In this document: one piece after another, positions 7,463-28,193 of the stretch
How the letters are laid out: every line of letters starts with the position of its first letter
Position numbering within the stretch: the stretch's first letter is position 1
NCBI GenBank assembly: GCA_903824935.1
Contig: CAIJYT010000169.1
Location: forward strand, 1 to 47,682
Source of the DNA: an uncultured Bacteroidales bacterium
GTDB taxonomy: Bacteria; Bacteroidota; Bacteroidia; Bacteroidales; FEN-979
DNA length: 47,682 bases
Direction: 5' to 3'
Made by a program: the position numbers and the translations under genes
The notes under the pieces: generated by a model
The model's input: only the letters and a program-made list of their open reading frames with translations
Databases searched by the model: none
What the model was told of the DNA's origin: nothing

Positions 7463-7521
7463 ACTTTCATTTTAAAACATTTTAATAATACCCTCGAATC
7501 TCTGCAAGGCGGTTGGTCGCG

Positions 7522-7793
7522 TTCACATCACACCGTTACTTTTCGCTTTCACATCACACCGTTGCGGTTCGCTTTCACATCACACCGCTGCTACGGTGTG
7601 GCGGAGCGACATGATGATATGCTATTCTAACCAACTCCAGGCTCCTTACACCTGATGCAGCTTTTGTGATGTGAGTCGCTCCCTACACCTGATGCAGCTT
7701 GTGTGATGTGATTCGTTCATTACACCTGATGCAGCTTTTGTGATGTTAGTCGCTCCGATCATCTGATGAGGCTTATGCAATTTGCTTCGCTTC
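7522..7793. repeat. Intergenic repeat element, copy L (26-base and 37-base modules)
   Basis: The 349-base gap between der and era holds no gene and is almost all repeat. Module a (TTCACATCACACCGTT) occurs at 7522-7537, 7548-7563 and 7574-7589, period 26. Module b (beginning TACACCTGATGCAGCTT) occurs at 7646-7682, 7683-7719, 7720-7756 and, degenerate, 7757-7793, period 37. Read on the minus strand, 7570-7679 aligns without gaps to 25503-25612 on the plus strand: 3 mismatches in 50 bases and 5 in 39, with a diverged 21-base middle. It is therefore a dispersed element, here in the opposite orientation to copy R. Confidence 0.85.
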
Positions 7794-11091: not shown

Positions 11092-12327
11092 TCAAATACC
11101 CTCCGAATAATATTGTTTAAGCATCCCGGCGGCATACCTGAATTGCTCAGGCGAATTGTACAACTCCGCCGAAAGCCGGGTCGTTCGCCGTGGGGGCTGC
11201 GACCAGTACCATAACGGCAATTCGAGATCATGCTCTTTGAAAAGCCTGTCCTGCAAGGCATCGACATTCTTATAATCGGGAGGAACCATATCTCCAAAAG
11301 GCGGAAGTTCTAACGTTGTCATACCCGCATTCATCTCCGCGGGACATGACGGGCTCAATCGAAGTTCAGCACAAAAAATATCACGGGCCTCAATACAAAG
11401 GTCATGGTTGTGTTTCATGACCGCATCCCAGCCCCCGGGCATCAGCGAAGCCATATAGTCAATTGAATCGGCCGCACAAAGCACAGGCGAAGGATCCAGC
11501 GTGCCCTGCCAGAAAAACCTCCCGGCAAAGGGTTCTGCTTTATGCCCGGCATGACTGATGATCAGCGGCAAAATGGGTTTCTGCCTGTCGTTACGCACAT
11601 GCAAAATGGCAGCACTTTTTGGCGAACAAAGCCATTTATGGCAATTTCCTGTATAATAAGCGGCGCCTATCTTATTAATATCCAGAGGAATGCTTCCCGG
11701 GGCATGCGCGCCGTCGACCATGGTATCAATTCCCAGCTTATCGAGTTCCCTCACAATCTCACCGACCGGCTGAATCAATGCAGTTGCCGAGGTGATATGA
11801 TCGATGAGGCATATCTTTGTTTTTTTACTGACTGCGGATAGCAGAGCGTCGGTGATCCGGCGGGGTGAATCTATGGGTATGTCATAGCATGCCTCCACGA
11901 TCACTGCCCCGGCAGACTCCGCAATGTATTCAAGCAGCTTGCGGCAGGCATAATACGTATGATTACTGATGAGTATCTCATCGCCCGGTTCGAAATGCAG
12001 TGACCTGAATACCGTATTGACCCCTGCCGTTGCATTCTGCACAAAGACCAGGTCGGCGGGATCGGCATGAACAAAGGCAGAGATCTTTTCCATTGCCAAA
12101 CCCATCATCCCCTCGAGTTGCCTCACCAGGAAGCTCATGGGCTGGCCTTCGAGCATCAGGCGGTACTCGTTCTGCCTTTCAAGGATATATTTCGTACATG
12201 CCCCGAAAGACCCATGGTTCAGATAGATCGCGTGTGGATCAAGAGACCAGAGAGGGGAGAATTCGGAGGGATAGCGGTGTGTATCTGTCTTCACGTAATT
12301 TTCTATTGAATTTCGAATATTATTCAA
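11092..12327 (-). CDS. Class V PLP-dependent aminotransferase / isopenicillin N epimerase-like
   Basis: PLP fold-type I enzyme of 411 residues. The N-terminal IYLNHGSFG, VQNATAGVNTVF near residue 96, VDGAHAPG (Asp205) and YTGNCHKWLCSPKS (Schiff-base Lys231) place it with isopenicillin N epimerase-like and cysteine desulfurase-like proteins. No beta-lactam or Fe-S genes are nearby, so an epimerase or desulfurase activity cannot be assigned. The N-terminal conserved block requires a start upstream of it, yet no ATG is available: TTG 12327 (overlapping the preceding gene by 8 bases) or GTG 12294 are the choices. Middle gene of a three-gene minus-strand operon. Confidence 0.87.
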   Translation of the reverse strand: MNNIRNSIENYVKTDTHRYPSEFSPLWSLDPHAIYLNHGSFGACTKYILERQNEYRLMLEGQPMSFLVRQLEGMMGLAMEKISAFVHADPADLVFVQNATAGVNTVFRSLHFEPGDEILISNHTYYACRKLLEYIAESAGAVIVEACYDIPIDSPRRITDALLSAVSKKTKICLIDHITSATALIQPVGEIVRELDKLGIDTMVDGAHAPGSIPLDINKIGAAYYTGNCHKWLCSPKSAAILHVRNDRQKPILPLIISHAGHKAEPFAGRFFWQGTLDPSPVLCAADSIDYMASLMPGGWDAVMKHNHDLCIEARDIFCAELRLSPSCPAEMNAGMTTLELPPFGDMVPPDYKNVDALQDRLFKEHDLELPLWYWSQPPRRTTRLSAELYNSPEQFRYAAGMLKQYYSEGI

Positions 12328-13573
12328 TAGAAAGTATCATCCCCTTCAGGTACTCCCCTTCGGGATGGTAGATGCTCACAGGATGGTCGGGGCCCTGGGA
12401 GAGGTGGTGAAGGATTTTCACGTTCCTTCCTGTTTCAATGGCTGCTGACTGAAGTGCCGAACGGAACATTTCGCGGCTGATGGCCTGGGAGCAGGAGAAG
12501 GTGAACAGAAGCCCGCCCGGCTCAAGGTGGCGGATAGCCGAAGCATTCAGCTGGATATAGGCATGAAGTGCATTGTTCGATACCTGGTGGGTCTTGGCGA
12601 AAGCAGGAGGATCGAGTATGATCATGGAATATTTTTCGGAAGTGTTCTTAAGGAAAACTTTGACATCGGCTACTTCCGAAGAATGCCGGGTTTCGTCAAG
12701 CCCGTTCAGTGCAAGGTTTTCGCCTGTCCACCCTATGGCCTGCCTCGAACTGTCAACCGAATGTACGTGCTCTGCGCCACCCTTCAGGCAATACACCGAG
12801 AAAGCCCCTGAATAGCAGAACGTATTAAGTACCTTGCGGTTCTTTCCGTAAAACTGGGCAAACATGCGGTTGCTTCTCTGGTCCAGGAAAAATCCCGTTT
12901 TCTGGCCGTTCACGAAATCGACGTTGAACCTGTGACCCGTCTCGGCGATCTCGACGGCCGGGGAGTTGCCGTAGAGGAAACAATCAGTCTGCAGTTTGCA
13001 GTCTGCAGTCTGCAGTTTTATTCCCTCCGATCGCCGACTGCCGCCTGCCGACTCGTTTCTGCGTGAGGCTCTCTCCATGGTCTCCGCACTCTTATCGTAC
13101 ACAGCCAGTAACTTTTCGCCGTAAAGGTCCTTCAAAGCGTCAACCAGAACGGATTTTAAAAGATGCATCCCCAGGGAGTGTGTCTGGATGACGGCAACCC
13201 CGTTATACCAGTCGATGATCAAACCAGGCAGTTCATCACCTTCACTGTAAACGAGACGATAGGCATTGGTTAAAGGTCCTGAAGTAAGGCCGGCCTTCAT
13301 TCGCAGTTCGAAGGCTTGCTTTAAACGTCCAAGCCAGAAATCCGCCCCGGTAGTCGTCCGCAGAAAGGAAAAAATCTTAACTGCGATAGATCCTGTCATA
13401 AAATGTCCTGTTCCCAGAAACTGTCTCTCCGAAGAAAACACTTCGACCACCGTACCTTCTTTGACCTCTCCGACCTTCCTGTCAATCGCCCCTGAAAAGA
13501 TCCAGGGATGCCTCCTTAGAACCGCTGCTTCCTTGCCCGGCTTCAATATTACCATTGGAATCCTGTCCATCAC
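12320..13573 (-). CDS. SAM-dependent rRNA (cytosine-C5) methyltransferase, RlmI-like, with in-frame repeat insert
   Basis: A 417-residue protein of the RlmI family, which in Escherichia coli methylates C1962 of 23S rRNA. An N-terminal PUA domain is at about 5-75 (HPWIFSGAI), followed by an EEHEE-like region (LVYSEGDELPGLIIDWY), and a Rossmann methyltransferase domain (VLNTFCYSGAFSVY, then ILDPPAF) with the presumed catalytic Cys in FTFSCSQ. Between about residues 168 and 199 lies a stretch foreign to the family (containing KLQTADCKLQTDC), encoded by a 7-base repeat cassette at 12985-13054. The reading frame stays open, so the protein may still fold. First gene of the operon with the PLP enzyme. 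Confidence 0.9.
   Translation of the reverse strand: MMDRIPMVILKPGKEAAVLRRHPWIFSGAIDRKVGEVKEGTVVEVFSSERQFLGTGHFMTGSIAVKIFSFLRTTTGADFWLGRLKQAFELRMKAGLTSGPLTNAYRLVYSEGDELPGLIIDWYNGVAVIQTHSLGMHLLKSVLVDALKDLYGEKLLAVYDKSAETMERASRRNESAGGSRRSEGIKLQTADCKLQTDCFLYGNSPAVEIAETGHRFNVDFVNGQKTGFFLDQRSNRMFAQFYGKNRKVLNTFCYSGAFSVYCLKGGAEHVHSVDSSRQAIGWTGENLALNGLDETRHSSEVADVKVFLKNTSEKYSMIILDPPAFAKTHQVSNNALHAYIQLNASAIRHLEPGGLLFTFSCSQAISREMFRSALQSAAIETGRNVKILHHLSQGPDHPVSIYHPEGEYLKGMILSIE
12985..13054. repeat. 7-base repeat cassette inside the rRNA methyltransferase gene
   Basis: Five consecutive heptamers of the type CAGTCTG/CAGTTTG fill 12985-13019. A short spacer is followed by three GCCGACT-type heptamers (13033-13053), ending in CTGCCGACTC. 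The same units, in the same order, make up the cassette in mfd at 19431-19514. Confidence 0.85.
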
Positions 13574-15045: not shown

Positions 15046-15072
15046 TAACCCAGTTACCAAGTTACCAAGTTA
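15046..15072. repeat. 8-base repeat array starting in the pyrC stop codon
   Basis: On the minus strand the pyrC TAA is followed by CTTGGTAA, CTTGGTAA, CTGGGTTA: three octamers whose trailing TAA repeats the stop. They are related to the TTACTGGG octamers after the exporter gene at 28147. Confidence 0.7.
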
Positions 15073-16422
15073 TTTCCCAAACTCCATCCTTTGTCCCTTG
15101 ACGGCCTCGTCAAACCTTCCATGATCAAAGACCAATCGCCCGTTGACCCAGCACATATTGACTCTTGATTTAAAAGTGACACCCTCGAGAGGAGACCATC
15201 CGCATTTATATAAAATATTTTCAGGAGCCACAGTCCAGGGAGCATCCATATCGACCAGTGCAAGGTCGGCATGGTATCCCTTGCGGATGAAGCCCCTCTC
15301 CTTTATCCTGTAAAGAATGGCAGGCGAATGGCACATCTTGTCGACAATGGTTTCCAGCGGCAGCCTGCCCATATGGTAAAATCCCAGCATGGCCACCAGG
15401 CTGTGCTGTATCAGTGGCGCTCCCGAAGGGCATGATGCATATGGATTGTCTTTCTCTTTTAACAGATGCGGTGCGTGGTCTGTGGCAATAATATCTATAG
15501 TGTTGCTGATCAGTCCCTCCATGAGGCCAAGCTTGTCCTTTTCGGTCTTGATGGCAGGGTTCCACTTGATCCTCGAACCAAGATCTGCATAATCCCTGTC
15601 GTCAAACCAGAGATGATGAACGCAAACCTCGCCTGTGATACGCTTATCCCTGAGGGGGATGGTATTATCCAGTAACTCCAGTTCCCGGGCTGTTGAAAGA
15701 TGTAACAAATGCAGGCGGGCATTATATTTCTTTGCAAGCCCCACAAGGATCTCCGAAGACCTGTAACATGCTTCTTCACTGCGGATGAGGGGGTGGGCTT
15801 CAACCGGTATATCGTCTCCGTACTTTTTTTTGTATGACTTGAGATTTGCCTGTATGATGGATTCATCTTCACTGTGGACGGCTATGATCATGGGGCATTC
15901 CCTGAAAATGTTTTCAAGTATCCTCATATCATTCACCAGCATATTTCCTGTGGATGCGCCTGTGAAAATTTTAAGCCCGCAGATACGCACTGGGTCTGCC
16001 TTTTTTATCTCATCCAGGTTATCGTTGGAGGCTCCCAGGAAAAAGGAATAGTTCGCCAGGGATTTAGTGGCTGCAAGTTTGTACTTCTCTTCCAGTATCT
16101 CCAGGGATGTTGCCTTTGGAAGGGTGTTGGGCATATCCATAAAGGAAGTGACCCCTCCGGCTACGGCAGCCCTGGTTTCGGTATGCAGATCCCCTTTTTC
16201 GGTAAGCCCCGGATCCCTGAAATGGACCTGGTCGTCAATGACGCCGGGCATCAGCAATTGCCCTTTTGCATCGATCTCAACAGTACCTTGCGGGAGTGAA
16301 AAGGTTGAAGGCCTCCTGCCGTTGAAGATCTCAGTGATACAACCGCCTGTGATGAGCACTGAGCCGGCAAACTGTTTGCCTTCATTGACAATGAGGGCAT
16401 TGTGAATAAAGTATGATTCCAT
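15070..16422 (-). CDS. pyrC: Dihydroorotase
   Basis: Cyclises carbamoyl aspartate to dihydroorotate in pyrimidine synthesis (amidohydrolase fold). It has 450 residues. Family blocks: VIDDQVHFRDPG (metal site near residue 60), GGVTSFMDMPNT, LKIFTGASTGNMLV, HSEDES, HLLHLST and IIATDHAPH. The first histidine of the usual HxH pair is a glutamine (DDQVHFR), which I remember as common in Bacteroidetes dihydroorotases. I use ATG 16422 (MESYFIHNALIVNEG); the frame extends nine codons, but that would overlap the preceding gene and adds no family sequence. It lies 19 bases after the GT2 gene and is probably co-transcribed with it. Confidence 0.95.
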   Translation of the reverse strand: MESYFIHNALIVNEGKQFAGSVLITGGCITEIFNGRRPSTFSLPQGTVEIDAKGQLLMPGVIDDQVHFRDPGLTEKGDLHTETRAAVAGGVTSFMDMPNTLPKATSLEILEEKYKLAATKSLANYSFFLGASNDNLDEIKKADPVRICGLKIFTGASTGNMLVNDMRILENIFRECPMIIAVHSEDESIIQANLKSYKKKYGDDIPVEAHPLIRSEEACYRSSEILVGLAKKYNARLHLLHLSTARELELLDNTIPLRDKRITGEVCVHHLWFDDRDYADLGSRIKWNPAIKTEKDKLGLMEGLISNTIDIIATDHAPHLLKEKDNPYASCPSGAPLIQHSLVAMLGFYHMGRLPLETIVDKMCHSPAILYRIKERGFIRKGYHADLALVDMDAPWTVAPENILYKCGWSPLEGVTFKSRVNMCWVNGRLVFDHGRFDEAVKGQRMEFGK

Positions 16423-16441
16423 AGTAAAAAAAGTGGAAATA

Positions 16442-17188
16442 TCAGGCATTTTTACGCCTGTATTTTTTAAACAGGCTTTTGAACCTGAGGGTGATCACTC
16501 CGAATACAGCTTCGCGGAAGATGCCTTTGCTCATCTTGGATTCACCCAGGGTGCGATCGGTGAAAATGATGGGCACTTCAACTATTTTAAAGCCAAGTTT
16601 CCAGGCAAGGAATTTCATCTCTATCTGGAAAGCATAACCTGTAAAATGAATGGCATCGAAATCAATGGCTTCAAGCACAGGACGGGTATAGCATTTGAAA
16701 CCTGCAGTAGTATCCCAGATCTTCATCCGTGTAACAAACCTAACGTAGGCCGAAGCGTAATACGACATCAGCACCCTGCCGATAGGCCAGTTCACCACAT
16801 TCACACCCTTCACATAACGGGAACCAATGACAAGGTCGGCCCCCTTCTTTGCGGCGTCGTATAATCTTACGAGGTCTTCGGGATTATGCGAAAAATCGGC
16901 ATCCATCTCGAAAATATAATCATATTTACGGTCTATTGCCCAGTGAAAACCATGGATATAGGCTGTTCCGAGCCCCAGTTTTCCCTTACGCTGTTCCATG
17001 AACAGGGTAGCGGGAAACTCTTTCATGAGACGGGTTACGATATCCGCAGTGTGATCAGGTGAATTATCTTCAATGATGAGGATGTGAAAGTCTTTGGGCA
17101 AAGAAAACACCTTACGTATAATCGCTTCGATATTTTCCTTCTCATTATAGGTTGGAATTATAACAAGACAATCTGACACCTCTTCCAA
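16442..17188 (-). CDS. Family 2 glycosyltransferase, polyprenol monophosphomannose synthase-like
   Basis: A 248-residue cytoplasmic-face glycosyltransferase of the dolichol-phosphate mannosyltransferase (DPM1) type, which would transfer a sugar from a GDP- or UDP-sugar to polyprenyl phosphate. Seen: VIIPTYNEKENI at the start, EDNSPDHTA, the metal-binding EMDADFSHNPEDL near residue 93, and FTDRTLGESKMSKG near residue 212. There is no C-terminal membrane domain, matching the soluble short form. It lies 40 bases after mfd. The sugar cannot be read from the sequence. Confidence 0.9.
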   Translation of the reverse strand: MEEVSDCLVIIPTYNEKENIEAIIRKVFSLPKDFHILIIEDNSPDHTADIVTRLMKEFPATLFMEQRKGKLGLGTAYIHGFHWAIDRKYDYIFEMDADFSHNPEDLVRLYDAAKKGADLVIGSRYVKGVNVVNWPIGRVLMSYYASAYVRFVTRMKIWDTTAGFKCYTRPVLEAIDFDAIHFTGYAFQIEMKFLAWKLGFKIVEVPIIFTDRTLGESKMSKGIFREAVFGVITLRFKSLFKKYRRKNA

Positions 17189-17228: not shown

Positions 17229-20200
17229 TTACATTGCATTCATCATATTCTCAAGCTTTTTCACTCCCTGGGCAATTGTTTCGGTCTCCCTGAAGGTGAG
17301 GAAAAGTTTGCTGCCTTCCTGTTTGAGTTTCAGGCCGCTTGCCGGGTCTTTGACAATCTCGAGAATCCTTCCGAAAGTTCCTGAATTATAGTATGTTGAA
17401 TCAGGATTTGACGGGAAGTATGAATTCATTCTGCCTTTTCGGAGGATGAGTTTTTCAAAGCCTATGTTTTTTGCGACTTTTCTCAGGCGTATGGTCTGCA
17501 GAAGCTCGTCGGTTTGGGGGGGCAATGTACCGAACCTGTCGGCCAGCCTTGACCTGAAATCTTCAAGGTCAGTTTCGGCCTCTATCGAATCCAGTTCTTT
17601 ATAAAGGTTTAATCTTTCAGTGATGTTGGTGACATAGGCATCAGGGATGAGGATCTCCATGTCGGTTTCAATCACACATTCCTTAACCGTAGACCGTGAG
17701 GGCAGGTCTTTGAACAGTTCGCCGAAATCCTGTTCCTTGAGTTCCGACAGGGCTTCGTCGAGGATCTTCTGGTACATCTCAAAGCCGATCTCGGTGATGA
17801 AGCCGCTTTGTTCAGCTCCCAGGATGTTACCCGCCCCGCGTATGTCGAGGTCGCGCATGGCAATGCTGAACCCGCTGCCGAGTTCCGAAAACTCCTCTAT
17901 GGCTTTAAGCCTTTTTTTGGCTTCATCAGTAAGGGTCGTCATAGGCGGGGCGATAAGGTAGCAGAAAGCTTTCCTGTTCGACCTTCCCACCCTGCCCCTG
18001 AGCTGGTGCAGATCACTGAGCCCGTAGTGATGGGCATCGTTGATGATGATGGTGTTGACGTTCGGGATATCCAGGCCCGATTCTATGATGGTGGTGGCAA
18101 CGAGTACATCAAACTCGCCTTCAATGAAATCCATCATCACTTTTTCAAGCTTTGGCCCGTCCATCTGGCCATGGGCCACAGCGACCGTCGCCGAGGGGAC
18201 CAGCCTTTGTATCATGCCTGCGACTTCGCCAATGTTCTGCACCCTGGTGTTTACGACGAAAACCTGTCCGCCCCTCGATAATTCATTACTGATAGCCTCT
18301 TTGAAAACATCCTCGTGAAAAGAATGGATCTCGGTCTGCACGGGGTACCTGTTGGGAGGGGGCGTATTGATGATAGAAAGGTCCCTGGCACCCATGAGTG
18401 AAAACTGCAGGGTTCTTGGAATAGGCGTTGCAGTAAGGGTAAGCGTATCGACGTTCACCCTCAGTCTTTTCATTTTTTCCTTTGCAGCAACTCCGAATTT
18501 CTGCTCCTCGTCAATAATGAGCAGTCCGAGGTCCTTGAAAGCCAGCTCTTTGCCCAGCAACCTATGGGTGCCGATGAGGATGTCGATCTTTCCTTCGGCA
18601 AGATCTTTTATGATCCCACCCTGGCTTTTGGCGCTCCTGAAACGGTTGATGTAATCGACCCTGCAGGGAAAATCCTTAAGCCTTTCCGAGAAGGTCTTGA
18701 AATGCTGAAGGGCGAGTATGGTCGTGGGGACGAGCACCGCAACCTGCTTTGAATCCGCAACAACCTTAAAAGCTGCCCGTATCGCGATTTCGGTTTTTCC
18801 GAAGCCCACGTCCCCGCAAACCAATCGGTCCATAGGAAATCCCGCTTCAAGGTCTTTTTTGACATCCACCGTCGATTTGATCTGGTCGGGAGTGTCTTCG
18901 TAGATGAATGAAGCCTCTAGCTCGGTCTGAAGATAGGTGTCGGGTGCATAAGCAAAGCCTACGGTGGCACGCCTTTCGGCATACAGCTTGATGAGGTCGC
19001 GGGCAATATCCTTGACCCTGCTCTTGGTCCTGGCCTTGAGTTTGGTCCAGGAGTCTGAGCCCAGCCTGTTCAAAACCGGTGCAGTTCCTTCCTTGCCTAT
19101 ATATTTCGAAATACGGTGAAGCGAATGTATGCTCACATAAAGCACATCCTCATTCTTATAAATAAGGCGGATAGCCTCCTGCTCCTTGCCGTTATTCATG
19201 ATCTTTTCTAGACCGTCGAACCGCCCCACCCCATGGTCTATATGCGTAACATAATCCCCGGGTTTCAGGTCGTATATCTCTTTCAGCGTCAGGGCCTCCT
19301 TGCTGGTATACCCGTCGCGCAGGTGAAAATGATGGTAACGTTCGAAGATCTGGTGGTCGGTGTAGACGAGCAGCTTCAGGTCGTGGTCGACGAAACCCTC
19401 ATGGATGACGTGAACCGTGACCCGGGAAGGGAGTCGGCAGTCTGCAGTCTGCAGTCTGCAAACTGCCGACTGTAGACTCTCTTCCTGCCGACTGCCGACT
19501 GCCGACTGCCGACTCATTTCAAGGTCCTCCAGTATAGCTTGCAACCTCTCCGCCTGCTTCGCCCCATCGGCAAGTATCACATTCGCATAACCCCTCGCGG
19601 CGTGATCAGCGAGATCGGCCGTGAGCAGGTCAAAATTCTTATTAAAGGAAGGCTGGGGGGAAGTATTGTAAGTGATTGTTTTTGAACTCTTAAAATAAAA
19701 CTGCCTGCCGAATTCGACCGATGAGGAGTCCAGCAGCAGGGGCAGAAATTCACTGCTTTTCATCAACAGGTCCGAGCCTGTAAGCTCGTCGAGGCGATCG
19801 GCACAGAAGCCGGTATCTTCCAGCCAGATCGCCGAGCCCTCGGGCAGGAAGCCCAGGAGGGGCTCATACCCTGTCTTTTTCTCTTCATTCACGCGGATAT
19901 CGGGCACAATGGTGATGCTCTCTTTGAGGTTCAGCGAAAGCTGGGCCGCCGGGTCAAAGGTGCGGATGGAAGCAATGCTGTCTCCGCTGAATTCGATTCG
20001 GTAAGGATGGTCACTGCTGAAGGAGTAAACGTCGATGAGGCCTCCGCGGAGCGCAAACTGCCCGGGTTCGAGAACGAAATCGGCCCTCTCGAAATCATAT
20101 TCGACAAGAAGGTCAAGGATGAAATCCATGCTGACTTTCTCACCCGAACTGAGCTTAAGGGTGTTTTTTTCGAGAAATTTACGGTTGACGACCTTTTCGG

Positions 20201-20609
20201 CCAGGGCTTCAGGATAGGTGACAATAAAAAAACTCCCTGCCCTGTTGTTCAGGCGGTTCAGCACTTCGGTCCTCAGCAGCAGCCCCTGGTTGTCCTTGGC
20301 GCCCGAAAGCACGCCTTTCTTGAAAGAGGACGGGAAAAACAGAATGCGTTTTTTCTCGGATTCTTCAGAGATCTCATCAAAGATCTGTTCGAGGTCGTTC
20401 AGGAAATAAGCGGCAGACTCCTTGTCGGGGAGAATTGCCAGGTGCACCCTGGGCGTCCGTTTGAAAATGGAGGCAGTGACGAAAGTCCGGGATGAACCGA
20501 TGAGGCCTTTGAGGCTAAAACGGGCATGAGACGAGCCGTTCAGTGCTTCCGAAACCTCTATGGTCCTGGAATCCTGTGAGTATTTTTCTATCAGGTCATT
20601 GGGTGTCAC
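17229..20609 (-). CDS. mfd: Transcription-repair coupling factor Mfd, with in-frame repeat insert
   Basis: DNA translocase of 1126 residues that removes RNA polymerase stalled at lesions and recruits UvrA. The UvrB-like N-terminal domains contain GGLIDVYSFSSDHPYRIEF; the RNA-polymerase interaction domain has KPGDYVTHIDHGVGRF (near 450); the RecG-like motor carries the Walker A sequence GDVGFGKTE, the DEEQ box in IIDEEQKFGV, TATPIPRTL, and the TRG region ending RGRVGRSNRKAFCY; a TRCF domain ends the protein. Between about residues 365 and 397 is a foreign stretch (SRQSAVGSRQ ... LQTADCRLPSR) encoded by the repeat cassette at 19431-19514. GTG start at 20609, 24 bases after fbp. Confidence 0.96.
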   Translation of the reverse strand: MTPNDLIEKYSQDSRTIEVSEALNGSSHARFSLKGLIGSSRTFVTASIFKRTPRVHLAILPDKESAAYFLNDLEQIFDEISEESEKKRILFFPSSFKKGVLSGAKDNQGLLLRTEVLNRLNNRAGSFFIVTYPEALAEKVVNRKFLEKNTLKLSSGEKVSMDFILDLLVEYDFERADFVLEPGQFALRGGLIDVYSFSSDHPYRIEFSGDSIASIRTFDPAAQLSLNLKESITIVPDIRVNEEKKTGYEPLLGFLPEGSAIWLEDTGFCADRLDELTGSDLLMKSSEFLPLLLDSSSVEFGRQFYFKSSKTITYNTSPQPSFNKNFDLLTADLADHAARGYANVILADGAKQAERLQAILEDLEMSRQSAVGSRQEESLQSAVCRLQTADCRLPSRVTVHVIHEGFVDHDLKLLVYTDHQIFERYHHFHLRDGYTSKEALTLKEIYDLKPGDYVTHIDHGVGRFDGLEKIMNNGKEQEAIRLIYKNEDVLYVSIHSLHRISKYIGKEGTAPVLNRLGSDSWTKLKARTKSRVKDIARDLIKLYAERRATVGFAYAPDTYLQTELEASFIYEDTPDQIKSTVDVKKDLEAGFPMDRLVCGDVGFGKTEIAIRAAFKVVADSKQVAVLVPTTILALQHFKTFSERLKDFPCRVDYINRFRSAKSQGGIIKDLAEGKIDILIGTHRLLGKELAFKDLGLLIIDEEQKFGVAAKEKMKRLRVNVDTLTLTATPIPRTLQFSLMGARDLSIINTPPPNRYPVQTEIHSFHEDVFKEAISNELSRGGQVFVVNTRVQNIGEVAGMIQRLVPSATVAVAHGQMDGPKLEKVMMDFIEGEFDVLVATTIIESGLDIPNVNTIIINDAHHYGLSDLHQLRGRVGRSNRKAFCYLIAPPMTTLTDEAKKRLKAIEEFSELGSGFSIAMRDLDIRGAGNILGAEQSGFITEIGFEMYQKILDEALSELKEQDFGELFKDLPSRSTVKECVIETDMEILIPDAYVTNITERLNLYKELDSIEAETDLEDFRSRLADRFGTLPPQTDELLQTIRLRKVAKNIGFEKLILRKGRMNSYFPSNPDSTYYNSGTFGRILEIVKDPASGLKLKQEGSKLFLTFRETETIAQGVKKLENMMNAM
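19431..19514. repeat. 7-base repeat cassette inside mfd
   Basis: It begins GAGTCGGCAG and ends CTGCCGACTC, a 10-base terminal inverted repeat. Inside are CAGTCTG-type heptamers (from about 19438) and GCCGACT heptamers (to 19513). It keeps the mfd frame open and matches the cassette at 12985-13054 in unit sequence and order. Confidence 0.88.
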
Positions 20610-21687: not shown

Positions 21688-21751
21688 CGTGAATCGTGAC
21701 TCGTGATCCGTGAATCGTGAACCGTTAACGAGTCACGAGTCACGATTCACG
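21688..21751. repeat. 7-base repeat array forming a long inverted repeat between divergent promoters
   Basis: Six heptamers of the type CGTGAAT/CGTGACT run from 21688 to 21729, followed by their complements to 21751. CGTGAATCGTGACTCGTGA (21688-21706) is perfectly complementary to 21733-21751, and the 26-base loop ends with the palindrome CGTTAACG (21723-21730). It lies between the -7 elements of fbp and the aspartate kinase gene. Confidence 0.9.
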
Positions 21752-21758
21752 AAATTCG

Positions 21759-21771: not shown

Positions 21772-23067
21772 ATGGAAATCAAAGTATTCAAATTCGGCGG
21801 GGCTTCCGTCAATTCAGCCGACGGGTATCGCAACGTTCTCCGAATCCTGAAGAAGTACAGGGATACACCGCTGATGGTGGTGGTTTCGGCCATGGGTAAA
21901 ACCACCAATGCGCTGGAGCTGGTGCTGAAACATTTCAGGGCCAATGACCCAATCGGGCTGATCGAATCCTTCGATGCAATTTACGAGGCCCATTTTTCAG
22001 TGATCACTGAGCTGTTTCCCGATAAAAACCATGTTGTTTACGGTGAGGCAGAATCATTATTCGACCAGCTCCGGGGTTATATCCGCAAAGGCCATCTTTA
22101 CGATAAAGCCCATAGAACCTACGATTTCGAATATGACCAGATCGTTAGTTACGGTGAGCTTTTTTCCTCCTGTATACTAAATAATTATTTGAATTCCAAA
22201 GGGATAACCTGCAGATTACTTGATGCAAGAGAGCTCATCATCACCGATGACACCTACCGTGATGCCAGGGTAAACTGGGAGAAGAGCGGTGAACTGATCA
22301 AGGCTTCGGTTCTTCAGTATTTTGAAGGACCAGCATCGTCATCCGTAGTCCTTACACAAGGCTTCATAGGCTCGGAACCTTCGGGTAATTCAACCACGCT
22401 GGGACGCGAAGGATCGGATTTTACAGCGGCCATCCTTGCTTATATTCTTAAATCACAGGACGTTACTATCTGGAAGGATGTGAGTGGAGTTTTAAATGCA
22501 GATCCGAAGTGGTTTAAAAATCCAAAGAAACTTCCTGTGATCTCTTATCGTGAAGCCATTGAGCTTGCCTATTACGGGGCTTCGGTGATACATCCCAAGA
22601 CCATCAGGCCTCTTGAGAACGCAGGCATCAAACTTTATGTTAAAAGTTTCAAGAATCCCGGGGCTGCGGGGACTGTAATTAAAAACATAGATCGATGGAA
22701 TATCAGCTTTCCGATCTATATCCGCAAGCAGAACCAGGTCCTGATATCCATATCGCCAAGGGATTTTTCTTTTATAGTCGAAGAAAACCTCAGCCAGATT
22801 TTCACGGTTCTGGCCCGTTACCGGGCCAAAACGAATGTGATGCAGAATTCTGCAATCAGTTTTTCGATATGTCTTGAGCGAAATGACGAGGTGCTGTATG
22901 ACCTTATCGAAGAGCTCTCGCAGAACTACGAGATCCGTTACAATTCCAATGTTGATCTGTTTACAGTCAGGCATTACACACCTGCTGCCATTTCCCGCCT
23001 CAGCCGTGGCCGCACTGTATTACTCGAGCAAAAGACGAGAAATACGGTACACCTTGTTGTCAAATAG
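21772..23067 (+). CDS. Aspartate kinase (monofunctional)
   Basis: Phosphorylates aspartate, the first step of lysine, threonine, methionine and diaminopimelate synthesis. It has 431 residues. Seen: VFKFGGASVNSADGYRNV at the start, VVVSAMGKTTNALE, LTQGFIGSEPSGNSTTLGREGSD-type block (near residue 200), VTIWKDVSGVLNADPK and ELAYYGASVIHPKTI. The C-terminal part (about 305-431) is ACT-like (LISISPRDFSFI) but the usual paired ACT arrangement looks diverged, so feedback control is uncertain. The gene stands alone and is flanked on both sides by CGTGAAC-type heptamer arrays. Confidence 0.94.
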   Translation: MEIKVFKFGGASVNSADGYRNVLRILKKYRDTPLMVVVSAMGKTTNALELVLKHFRANDPIGLIESFDAIYEAHFSVITELFPDKNHVVYGEAESLFDQLRGYIRKGHLYDKAHRTYDFEYDQIVSYGELFSSCILNNYLNSKGITCRLLDARELIITDDTYRDARVNWEKSGELIKASVLQYFEGPASSSVVLTQGFIGSEPSGNSTTLGREGSDFTAAILAYILKSQDVTIWKDVSGVLNADPKWFKNPKKLPVISYREAIELAYYGASVIHPKTIRPLENAGIKLYVKSFKNPGAAGTVIKNIDRWNISFPIYIRKQNQVLISISPRDFSFIVEENLSQIFTVLARYRAKTNVMQNSAISFSICLERNDEVLYDLIEELSQNYEIRYNSNVDLFTVRHYTPAAISRLSRGRTVLLEQKTRNTVHLVVK

Positions 23068-23070
23068 CTT

Positions 23071-23108
23071 GAACCGTGACTCGTGAACCGTGAACCTTGA
23101 CTGGTGAG
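23071..23108. repeat. 7-base repeat array after aspartate kinase
   Basis: Heptamers of the type CGTGAAC/CGTGACT, with a few substitutions, begin three bases after the stop codon. They are the same unit as the array upstream of the gene. The rest of the gap (23109-23214) has a spaced inverted repeat CACAAGCC/GGCTTGTG (23131-23138, 23179-23186) that resembles part of the dispersed element, but weakly. Confidence 0.75.
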
Positions 23109-25720: not shown

Positions 25721-25744
25721 AAATCACCAATGATTTGCCTGAAA

Positions 25745-25776
25745 TTGAAGAAATAGTGCAGATTTTCGTACTTTCG
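25745..25776 (+). promoter_or_regulatory. Probable promoter of the exporter gene
   Basis: TTG at 25745-25747, a 21-base spacer, then TACTTTCG at 25769-25776, one base off TAnnTTTG. It ends 15 bases before the ATG at 25792. Confidence 0.4.
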
Positions 25777-25791
25777 CAGTTTCGAAATACT

Positions 25792-28149
25792 ATGTGGAAT
25801 TTTCTCGTAAGGTTCATCCTCAGGAACCGGATCATCATCCTGGTTACCATCGCAGTATGCACGGCATTCATGGCCTGGAAAGCCACCGACGTACAGATAC
25901 AGTACAAGAACGCCAGCATACTCCCCGCAACTGATACCACCATCAAAGTTTACCAGAAATTCATCTCGCAGTTCGGTGAAGACGGCACTGTAATGTTTAT
26001 CGGCATTATAGACCCGGGGATGTTCCAGCTTAAAAACTTCAATGCAGTATTCGAGTTAAGCGATTCGCTGAGCAAGATCAAAGGAGTTGAAGGGGTTGTA
26101 TCGGTAACAAGGATCTTCAACCTTGTCAAAAACGATTCTTTGCGCAAGTTCGTGTTCGTGCCTATCTCTCCTAAAAAGGCCACGTCACAGACTGAACTCG
26201 ATTCAATACGAAACCTCATCCTTTCTTTACCTTTTTACGACGGACTGGTTTTCAACAAAAACACTTCGGCTTACCTGTTTGCGCTTACCCTCGATAAAAC
26301 CCTGATCCATTCCAAATCCAGGCTGGCACTGGTGAATCAGATCAAAGCCAAAGTCGAGAATTTCAGCCGGGCAAACAATATAGAACCTCATTATTCGGGT
26401 TTGCCGTATATACAGACCCTGATCGCAAAAAAGCTGCAGGACGAGATGAAACTGTTCGTCGTGCTTACGCTTCTGATCGCGGCTTTCTTCCTTTTCATTT
26501 TCTTCAGATCGTTCAAGGCGGTGATCTTCCCTATGCTGGTGATCATCATCTCTGTGACCTGGGCCCTGGGGTTTATGGGGCTATTTGCTTACAAGATCAC
26601 CATGCTTACGGCTATCATCCCTCCCCTGCTCATAGTGATAGGCGTTGAGAACTGCATCTTTATCCTGAACAAATATCATTACGAATTCTCGCATCACGGC
26701 AACCAGGCGAAAGCCCTGTCGAGGGTCATCCAGAGGATTGGCATGGCGAACCTGCTCACCAACGCAGCCACTGCCGCGGGGTTTGCGGCATTCACCATCA
26801 CCCAAAATAAACTACTGGTCGAATTCGGAACCATCGCAGCTATCAACATCATGGTGGTTTATGCTCTTTCGCTCACCCTGGTGCCTATTATTTTCAGCTT
26901 CCTTCCTGCTCCCGAAAGCAAGCATGTTAAGCATATCGAGGCCAGCCTTGCCCAGAAGCTGATCGACAAAGCCGTTTTCTGGGTGACCAATTACAGGACC
27001 TATATTTATATCGCCATGGGGGTTTGCGTGGTCTTCGGCGTAGTTGGAGCCAGCCTGCTGCATACCTCGGGTACCATAGTCGACGACATCTCCAAAAAAG
27101 ACCCTATCTATAAAGACCTGCTGTTCTTTGAGAAGAATTTCAACGGCATCATGCCCCTCGAGATATCCATAGACACAAAAAAGAAAAAAGGAGTGCTGCA
27201 GCTGTCGACATTGAAAAAAATCGACAGGCTCCAGGATACGCTTGCGAAGTACTGTGAACTGTCGAAACCCCTTTCGGTGGTGGAAGTCATAAAGACTGCA
27301 AAGCAGGCATTTTACGGGGGAGACCCGAAGTTCTATTCACTGCCGAACTCCAATGAGATTGCTTTCATGGCTGATTACATTCCCGACATGAAGCCTAAAA
27401 AACGGAACCTCCTCAAGAATTTTATCGACAGCAATTACCAGATCACCAGGGTGAGCGTGCAGATGGCCAATGTGGGGACGAAAAAGATAGACAGCATACA
27501 AAGGAACCTGAAGCCCAAGATCGACAGCATTTTCAACCCTGCAAAATATACAGTGAATGTCACAGGCACTTCGGTGGTATTCCTCAAAGGGACCAACTTC
27601 CTGATCAGGAACCTCTGGGAGAGCATAGCTTTGGCCATAGTTATCATAGCTGCCATACTTGCCTTTTTGTTCACTTCCTGGAGGATGATACTTATCTCGC
27701 TGATCCCGAATATCATACCGCAGCTGATGACCGCGGCCCTGATGGGATTTACAGGAATACCCATCAAGCCTTCGACCATTCTTATCTTCAGCATTGCTTT
27801 AGGAATCTCGGTGGATAACTCTATACAGTTCCTCTCGCGCTACCGGCTTCAGTTAAAGCACTCTAACCACAACATCCCCTACTCTGTTATCTCGGCCCTG
27901 AAAGAAACAGGGTACAGCATGATCTATTCATCAACGGTGCTGTTCTTCGGCTTCGGGGTGTTCATACTTTCGACTTTCGGCGGCACCCAGGCACTGGGCT
28001 TTTTGGTCTCGATCACGCTTCTCGTTGCCGGACTGCTTAATATGTTCGTCCTGCCGTCGATGTTGCTGACCCTCGACAAATGGAGCACGACCAAGGCGTT
28101 TGAGGAACCACTATTGGAGATATACGAGGATGAGGTTGGTGAAAGGTAA
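25792..28149 (+). CDS. MMPL/RND-superfamily exporter
   Basis: A 785-residue inner-membrane protein. One membrane helix near the N-terminus is followed by a periplasmic loop, then five to six helices (about 210-420, including VVLTLLIAAFFLFIFFRSF), a second helix plus large loop (about 425-630), and a last helix bundle to about residue 765. This duplicated layout is typical of RND/MMPL proteins, including the sterol-sensing-like repeats. Lipid or hydrophobic cargo is likely from the family; the actual substrate is unknown, and no membrane-fusion or outer-membrane partner is adjacent. I use ATG 25792 (MWNFLVRF), because the frame upstream has only a TTG and lies in the promoter. Confidence 0.88.
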   Translation: MWNFLVRFILRNRIIILVTIAVCTAFMAWKATDVQIQYKNASILPATDTTIKVYQKFISQFGEDGTVMFIGIIDPGMFQLKNFNAVFELSDSLSKIKGVEGVVSVTRIFNLVKNDSLRKFVFVPISPKKATSQTELDSIRNLILSLPFYDGLVFNKNTSAYLFALTLDKTLIHSKSRLALVNQIKAKVENFSRANNIEPHYSGLPYIQTLIAKKLQDEMKLFVVLTLLIAAFFLFIFFRSFKAVIFPMLVIIISVTWALGFMGLFAYKITMLTAIIPPLLIVIGVENCIFILNKYHYEFSHHGNQAKALSRVIQRIGMANLLTNAATAAGFAAFTITQNKLLVEFGTIAAINIMVVYALSLTLVPIIFSFLPAPESKHVKHIEASLAQKLIDKAVFWVTNYRTYIYIAMGVCVVFGVVGASLLHTSGTIVDDISKKDPIYKDLLFFEKNFNGIMPLEISIDTKKKKGVLQLSTLKKIDRLQDTLAKYCELSKPLSVVEVIKTAKQAFYGGDPKFYSLPNSNEIAFMADYIPDMKPKKRNLLKNFIDSNYQITRVSVQMANVGTKKIDSIQRNLKPKIDSIFNPAKYTVNVTGTSVVFLKGTNFLIRNLWESIALAIVIIAAILAFLFTSWRMILISLIPNIIPQLMTAALMGFTGIPIKPSTILIFSIALGISVDNSIQFLSRYRLQLKHSNHNIPYSVISALKETGYSMIYSSTVLFFGFGVFILSTFGGTQALGFLVSITLLVAGLLNMFVLPSMLLTLDKWSTTKAFEEPLLEIYEDEVGER

Positions 28150-28193
28150 CTGGGTGACTGGGGGTCTGGGTTACTGGGTTACTGGGTGATTGG
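28147..28193. repeat. 8-base repeat array starting in the exporter stop codon
   Basis: Six octamers TAACTGGG, TGACTGGG, GGTCTGGG, TTACTGGG, TTACTGGG, TGATTGG(-). The first contains the TAA stop. The array fills most of the 63-base gap before rfbA. Confidence 0.85.

Follow-up and report, generated by a model that had tools for sequence, protein, structure and literature searches.

Palindromic DNA lying in frame within unrelated genes is known from the Rickettsia palindromic elements, which are copies of one conserved sequence, and head-to-head arrays, G-rich and then C-rich, mark the interstitial telomere fusion sites of eukaryotes. Heptamer arrays are common in prokaryotes, and their cause is unexplained according to PMC6344855, PMC4692102 and PMC4679880. 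Heptameric simple-sequence repeats are the subject of the survey PMC6344855, and Rehm 2015 (PMC4692102) describes them with the unit GGGAATC for Xanthomonas and GGGGA(C/T)T for Nostoc. That paper counts 'convergent' pairs of GGGAATC in two genomes of Xanthomonas, 70 in one and 75 in the other, and few pairs in Nostoc. TAACTGA repeats occur in Beggiatoaceae, Cyanobacteria and some Bacteroidetes, many of them directly upstream of starts and with an occasional intragenic set, as described in PMC4679880.

The arrays analyzed here resemble the prokaryotic heptameric repeats, as those papers portray them, in their 7-bp unit, their dispersal and mostly intergenic location, and in the convergent pairs of Xanthomonas; they differ in also having 8-bp units, several families per genome, in-frame arrays at re-used loops, and an order of neighboring arrays that holds across unrelated units. 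With the TAACTGA repeats they have heptamer arrays in common, whereas a single unit is involved there, going by PMC4679880. Like the Rickettsia elements they bring palindromic DNA in frame into unrelated genes, but here register and order are kept, the sequence varies and a given site is used more than once. Telomere fusion sites have a similar arrangement, but the units vary here and the analogy is one of geometry only; we know of no telomeres or telomerase in these bacteria. Heptamer arrays as such are already known, whereas the order rule across units and the re-used in-gene sites in protein loops are apparently new, no earlier report having been found in the literature searched, which had most subscription journals outside its scope and included PMC4679880, PMC6749651, PMC4692102, PMC6344855 and PMC4666352.

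The window, the whole 47,682-nucleotide stretch of DNA analyzed, corresponds to contig C169 of G000, a draft genome of 3.63 Mb. Besides two cassettes within genes it holds four further arrays of 7- or 8-mers, two of which give the stop codon of the preceding gene:

12320..13573, minus strand: ORF of an RlmI-like methyltransferase, 417 aa, with the insert between YDKSAETM and FLYG
12985..13054, no strand assigned: 70-bp cassette lying in frame within the RlmI-like gene, with a CAGTCTG arm, a spacer and a GCCGACT arm
15048..15072, minus strand: 8-mer array (TAACTTGG on the minus strand) whose first unit gives the TAA stop (15070-15072) of ORF 15070-16449
17229..20609, minus strand: ORF of mfd (transcription-repair coupling factor), 1126 aa, with the insert at residues about 365-393
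19431..19514, no strand assigned: in-frame cassette in mfd, AGTCGGC/AGTCTGC arm, spacer and (CTGCCGA)n arm, 84 bp
21688..21752, no strand assigned: palindromic CGTGANN/NNTCACG array that separates two divergent genes and has -7-like promoter boxes to its left and right
23070..23100, plus strand: single purine-rich 7-mer array (TGAACCG) directly 3' of the stop codon of ORF 21772-23067 (AA_kinase family)
28145..28193, plus strand: 8-mer array (GGTGACTG) whose first unit, GGTAACTG, at 28145-28149 gives the TAA stop of ORF 25735-28149

The promoter boxes at 21688..21752 were read by eye against what we take to be the -7 consensus. The mfd product is identified by its Mfd domains and by matches to PDB 6x26/2eyq; the RlmI-like product has PUA_3 and Methyltrans_SAM domains and a match to YccW (3c0k), also known as RlmI. 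Both cassettes lie where the initial annotation had placed them, both leave the host frame open (1126 and 417 aa), and both translations contain the peptide word LQTADC that it had pointed out; the right arm of the RlmI-like cassette exceeded the threshold in one array scan only, with a score of 35. On the plus strand the left part of each cassette is built of AGTCTGC-type units and the right part of GCCGACT-type units, and the types and order of units do match as had been claimed. The cassette is no single fixed sequence, and 'same order and orientation' says little by itself, that order being its own reverse complement. The coprimality of 7 and 3 had been reckoned correctly; the figure of about 32 added residues was too high, since the mfd cassette comprises 28 codons and that of the RlmI-like gene 70 bp. 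With their cassettes the Mfd and RlmI loops measure 51 and 58 aa. Loops without a detected array range from 22 to 54 aa in 21 of 30 Mfd homologues (31 aa in 11 of these 21) and from 25 to 60 aa in 18 of 30 RlmI homologues (37 aa in 6 of these 18). When Mfd was modeled with AlphaFold2, as the initial annotation had proposed (mean pLDDT 70.5, 32 sequences), the insert was predicted to be a coil, flanked by a helix and a strand and of low confidence, with pLDDT below 50 at residues 370-391 of a middling model in which other stretches are equally low. The nearest of 80 named Mfd loci belong to Bacteroidales/Bacteroidetes at no more than 60% identity, in a set from which records close to G000 may have been excluded. 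The window cassettes, and the UvrA-type cases described below, are in-frame insertions in protein genes of the kind known from Rickettsia palindromic elements.

The two cassettes are not due to chance. The genome search that had been suggested for further examples found the kind repeated genome-wide, with 96 matches in G000 to the pattern CTGCCGACTGCCGACT (at most one mismatch) against none for the reversed control pattern; G000 contains dozens of such cassettes, and their units vary by site and by species. A lag-match scan of 2.03 Mb from 21 genomes (G000, of which about 300 kb were picked for AGTC arrays, and 20 relatives) returned 143 arrays of period 7 and 60 of period 8 (203 together) at a score of 14 or more, compared with 7 for periods 4, 5, 6 and 9-13 together. 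There were 24 arrays of period 14, 11 of period 21, 6 of period 16 and 1 of period 15, and the remaining periods up to 24 contributed another 20. Triplet-shuffled copies yielded no array of any searched period at this score; at a score of 10 they did contain arrays, of which just 1 had period 7 and 2 had period 8, while the real sequence has 211 and 93. The units seen include AGTCGGC, CGTGAAC, TAGCGAAA, GTGACTGG, ATCTGAC, ATCCAGCT, AGCGAAA, CTCATGG and more, and rather than one consensus unit per genome, G000 holds several 7- and 8-mer families. The 683 kb surveyed around mfd of 80 named Bacteroidota contain 26 arrays, 16 of them with a period of 7, 14 or 21. These surveys show the cassettes to be members of a class of short arrays, built of 7- or 8-bp units, that extends through the family and includes dispersed tandem heptamers in several copies.

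Arrays are 20-fold depleted in genes (39 per Mb inside ORFs, 802 per Mb outside), an intergenic preference like that of described heptamer arrays. The suggestion that such an element 'tolerates or targets coding sequence' stands in its first half; targeting is rejected on this depletion. Nor was a filter for a stop-free strand seen in genes: among 40 in-gene arrays, 11 are stop-free on the coding strand only, 9 on the other strand only, 14 on both and 6 on neither. Tolerance, not targeting, fits the distribution of arrays in genes, and the tolerant sites are shown to be those after stop codons, between promoters and in variable protein loops. Isolated arrays by gene 3' ends are purine-rich on the sense strand in a ratio of 27:8, and those by starts in a ratio of 13:10. 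The G002 contig entered these surveys of coding density, stop-free strand and gene ends, as well as those of gene direction and of UvrA, in-gene and intergenic coincidence below, without bases 300001-303410, with positions past the gap shifted and genes over the joint excluded from most of them; the register survey and the later array surveys used the corrected contig.

Homologue alignment, another check named in the initial annotation, revealed that the Mfd and RlmI inserts are absent or different in relatives. Each species is covered by a single draft genome. Mfd was matched in 41 of 41 genomes and the RlmI-like protein in 35 of 41, and in alignments of the best 30 loci of each, both insert sites are loops of variable length. 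An automatic test of these best 30 loci detected arrays in 9 of 30 Mfd loops and 12 of 30 RlmI loops, mostly of different units, and inspection by eye adds more, among them one in G016 mfd and, in G004 rlmI, a 12-mer-like stretch. The units, named by eye, are at the Mfd loop AGTCGGC (G000), CAGTCGG (G010), TAGCGAAA with ATCCTGC (G003), GTGAAATG (G002), CTCACAT (G020), CACCACT (G023), CGTCAAT (G022) and a 12-mer (G006), and at the RlmI loop GATATCA (G003), ATCACGC (G005), ATCCCGG (G001), CAGCGCC (G010), CACGCGT (G015) and others, with 8-mers in G007, G009, G016 and G022. The cassettes are not one 'repeat element': across other species, both loops carry arrays built of many kinds of unit. Within the genus (eight genomes) seven RlmI loops and four Mfd loops carry an array. 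Two rumen Bacteroidales (L164, L165) have peptides at the Mfd loop that by eye resemble translated heptamers, and no array over the score; L104 has two arrays elsewhere in Mfd. We also observed, in the same Mfd loop, an insertion of about 24 aa common to three species (L032, L033 and L036, from G004, G005 and G002), KQ.AQAA.G.A......AVQDCER, which is perhaps another in-frame repeat element. Part of the G010 rlmI loop (L070), CCCCTCCCCCTCGAGGGGGAGAGG...GGGGAGGGGG, is similar to an E. coli triplex motif, CCCTCTCCC.

Other genes repeat this picture. UvrA has arrays at two sites, in two and in three of three species, and an AsmA-family protein (971-976 aa) and an amino-acid permease (632-640 aa) each have same-site arrays in two species. 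In-gene coincidences, measured by relative gene position and not by alignment, number 3, 4 and 1 in three species pairs against 0.045, 0.036 and 0.02 expected, and for UvrA and two other genes site coincidence is 50-110 times over chance. As an aside, the UvrA of G002 (L200:7132-12219) and its orthologues in G006 and G007 are 1642-1696 aa long, nearly double the UvrA models (924-943 positions), and are matched in several stretches, like a tandem fusion. Intergenic coincidence is weaker, with arrays in both species at 17 sites, in one at 49 and 42 and in none at 403 (odds ratio 3.3, from non-independent species pairs). At the divergent-promoter site of the window, upstream of the AA_kinase gene, arrays of about four unit kinds are present in five of eight readable species; the site is array-free in G001, G007 and G010, and in G004 the left box lies outside the stretch compared. 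A syntenic match elsewhere was available for 22 of 40 purine-first pairs with 400-bp flanks, giving 113 site-by-genome comparisons, of which 34 showed an array (24 of an unrelated and 10 of a related unit) and 79 none. Some other genome has an array of an unrelated unit at 12 of the 22 syntenic sites, each of the 22 is array-free in at least one genome, and the few array pairs at syntenic sites in other genomes keep the order by 6:1, with one flat. Site re-use is frequent and far from universal. In the one clean comparison, arms and spacer of G006:77848-77916 stand, by eye, in place of about 12 bp in G007, where the flanks are 76-78% identical; because arms and spacer together replace these few bases, the spacer can be part of the insert. 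The G007 stretch aligned to G006:217567 is an intergenic region with several small CTTCG-centered palindromes (GGCGCTTCGCGCC, CAACGCTTCGCGTTG), which are REP-like.

When neighboring arrays are compared, the unit rich in purines or G comes first and the one rich in pyrimidines or C second. Pairs of 7/8-mer arrays within 150 bp of each other are purine-first by 31:1 in the family sample (65 pairs, with 14 left out for a neutral arm and 19 more for arms alike) and by 44:4 in independent IMG/VR contigs chosen by six exact array patterns (91 pairs, with 10 and 33 left out in the same way), compared with 18:27, no purine-first bias, for pairs 150-3000 bp apart. The few pairs from other families give 2:0, and the order test restricted to short gaps counted 0 and 0. 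Pairs that are inverted copies of one unit, equivalent to the inverted terminal arms of a MITE, make up 26 of the 65 pairs and alone give 24:2. Split by relatedness at a purine-content difference over 0.08, the family and IMG/VR ratios are 20:0 and 36:3 for inverted same-unit arms, 17:2 and 18:5 for unrelated arms and 1:2 and 2:2 for direct arms; the unrelated arms are the stronger test because copies by descent are not independent. Applied to every pair, the same less strict measure yields 38:4 and 56:10, with 23 of 65 and 25 of 91 pairs flat, and G-C skew gives 44:4 and 61:13. Pattern searches across 43 family genomes agree: purine-first loci outnumber reversed ones by 13 to 1 with AGTCNGC and by 22 to 0 with the 8-mer TAGCGAA, and for CGTGANN the ratio, counted in overlapping matches, is 137:3; their sole two reversed-order loci lie on contigs C17 and C25 of one genome, G045. 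The AGTCTGC arm alone is 3/7 purine, and the order of the RlmI cassette was assigned by unit family. In G006, inspection by eye shows near-palindromic GATATC arrays in either order, and the IMG/VR exceptions are TAACTGA/AACGGTT arrays and one AATTTTC case. Three of these four exceptions come from contigs found with TAACTGA, the one unit treated in PMC4679880. We read the convergent GGGAATC pairs of Xanthomonas (PMC4692102) as purine-first too, if 'convergent' means units pointing at each other. Gene direction as the sole cause is rejected on the counts for tandem (11:2) and divergent (2:0) regions, though the bias at gene ends does exist; convergent regions give 4:0 and within-gene pairs 3:0, pairs of like or flat purine content being excluded. 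The purine-first order hints at a process that writes the arrays.

As our preferred but tentative reading, which we hold with less than even confidence, we propose that inverted arrays break at their center, that G/purine-rich 7- or 8-mers are then added to each 3' end, and that some cassettes are copied in addition. An inverted array may form a hairpin or cruciform and the palindrome would break at its center; each of the two 3' ends would then gain such units in fixed register before the ends rejoin, and extension of only one end would leave a single array. Some cassettes might additionally be copied whole to other genome sites, and in genes the survivors would be those insertions that keep the frame open in a tolerant loop. 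Two-ended 3' extension with the G/purine-rich strand would place the purine-rich unit first whichever strand is read, and would account for arms that differ in unit and for single arrays; breakage at the center of an existing palindrome would lead to the re-use of sites. Against break and extension stand the 79 of 113 site-by-genome comparisons that are array-free, and the related unit in 10 of the other 34. Ku (PF02735) had no match in any of 43 family genomes (32 of them at least 90% complete), in a search whose control finds Ku in Bacillus subtilis; Ku-type end joining is rejected on this result, and the joining of ends would need another route. Outer and inner halves do not differ in perfection (P=0.66 for 62 arms, P=0.18 for 99 isolated arrays), and directional growth of arrays is therefore unsupported. 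Two other sources of pairs were discarded: partial inversion of one array predicts both orders equally, whereas the observed order is strongly one-sided, and fold-back copying as the sole source predicts related arms and cannot account for unrelated ones.

Ordinary microsatellites, which would arise everywhere by replication slippage with a preferred 7-8-nt step and persist where tolerated, so that the same loops are hit repeatedly, are a somewhat unlikely explanation. The idea of a polymerase footprint behind this step is cited by Rehm 2015 (PMC4692102) as reference 33, which we take to be Mrazek 2007. Slippage agrees with the strong depletion in coding DNA, the imperfect units that drift along an array, the insertions in variable loops and the array-free site in many other genomes, but it predicts no purine-first order of neighbors, and still less one between arms that are unrelated. 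It seems unlikely to us that the source of the whole class is a set of dispersed palindromic cassettes, MITE-like or similar to Rickettsia palindromic elements, which move or are copied as a unit and of which some land in frame in genes. Their mark may be seen in G000, where a few unit families recur in many copies and 15 of 16 TAGCGAA cassettes have one G-type (TAGCGAAG-type) and one A-type (TAGCGAAA-type) arm, with two G-type arms in none; two of these cassettes have like spacers, several AGTC cassettes share a center by eye, and 15 of 78 spacer pairs reach P<0.05 against 3.9 expected, partly from unit remnants in the spacers. Set against this, most TAGCGAA spacers differ, arms are unrelated in 22 of 65 pairs, 7- and 8-bp units mix within one cassette, and different units occupy one site in different species; the class does not consist of copies of one conserved element, a description that applies in part to some TAGCGAA and AGTC cassettes. 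Some cassettes do look copied as a unit, and we think that cassettes are renewed in place as well as copied within the genome.

Selection for RNA or DNA hairpins, as two-way terminators with a pyrimidine-rich 3' arm or as purine loading of mRNA ends, appears quite improbable: the sense-strand purine bias by gene 3' ends and the arrays that begin at or directly past stop codons speak for it, but the order holds for arms unable to pair and in tandem, convergent, divergent and in-gene regions alike. An assembly artefact of the draft genome, at which the arrays at some contig ends might hint, is hardly credible and was rejected, since the sites recur in several species whose genomes were assembled separately, where the frames are open and the flanks unique. 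Returning to extension at broken centers, it is doubtful that a bacterial DNA-end-extension activity with a fixed 7-8-nt register, telomerase-like in its effect, writes G/purine-rich repeats on both 3' ends of broken palindromes, the purine-first order of array pairs being its signature. Were this true, the activity would renew cassettes at fixed genomic sites, the loops of conserved proteins included. Any mechanism has to meet three constraints, namely the strict 7/8 register, the unit-independent order and the re-use of the same site with new sequence, all of which can be tested on closed genomes. Mfd, RlmI and UvrA provide a natural series of loop insertions, DNA-repair genes among them.

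The window also contains 26- and 37-bp tandem repeats (7517-7587 and 7641-7756), located in the gap between two minus-strand ORFs and unlike the 7/8-mers.
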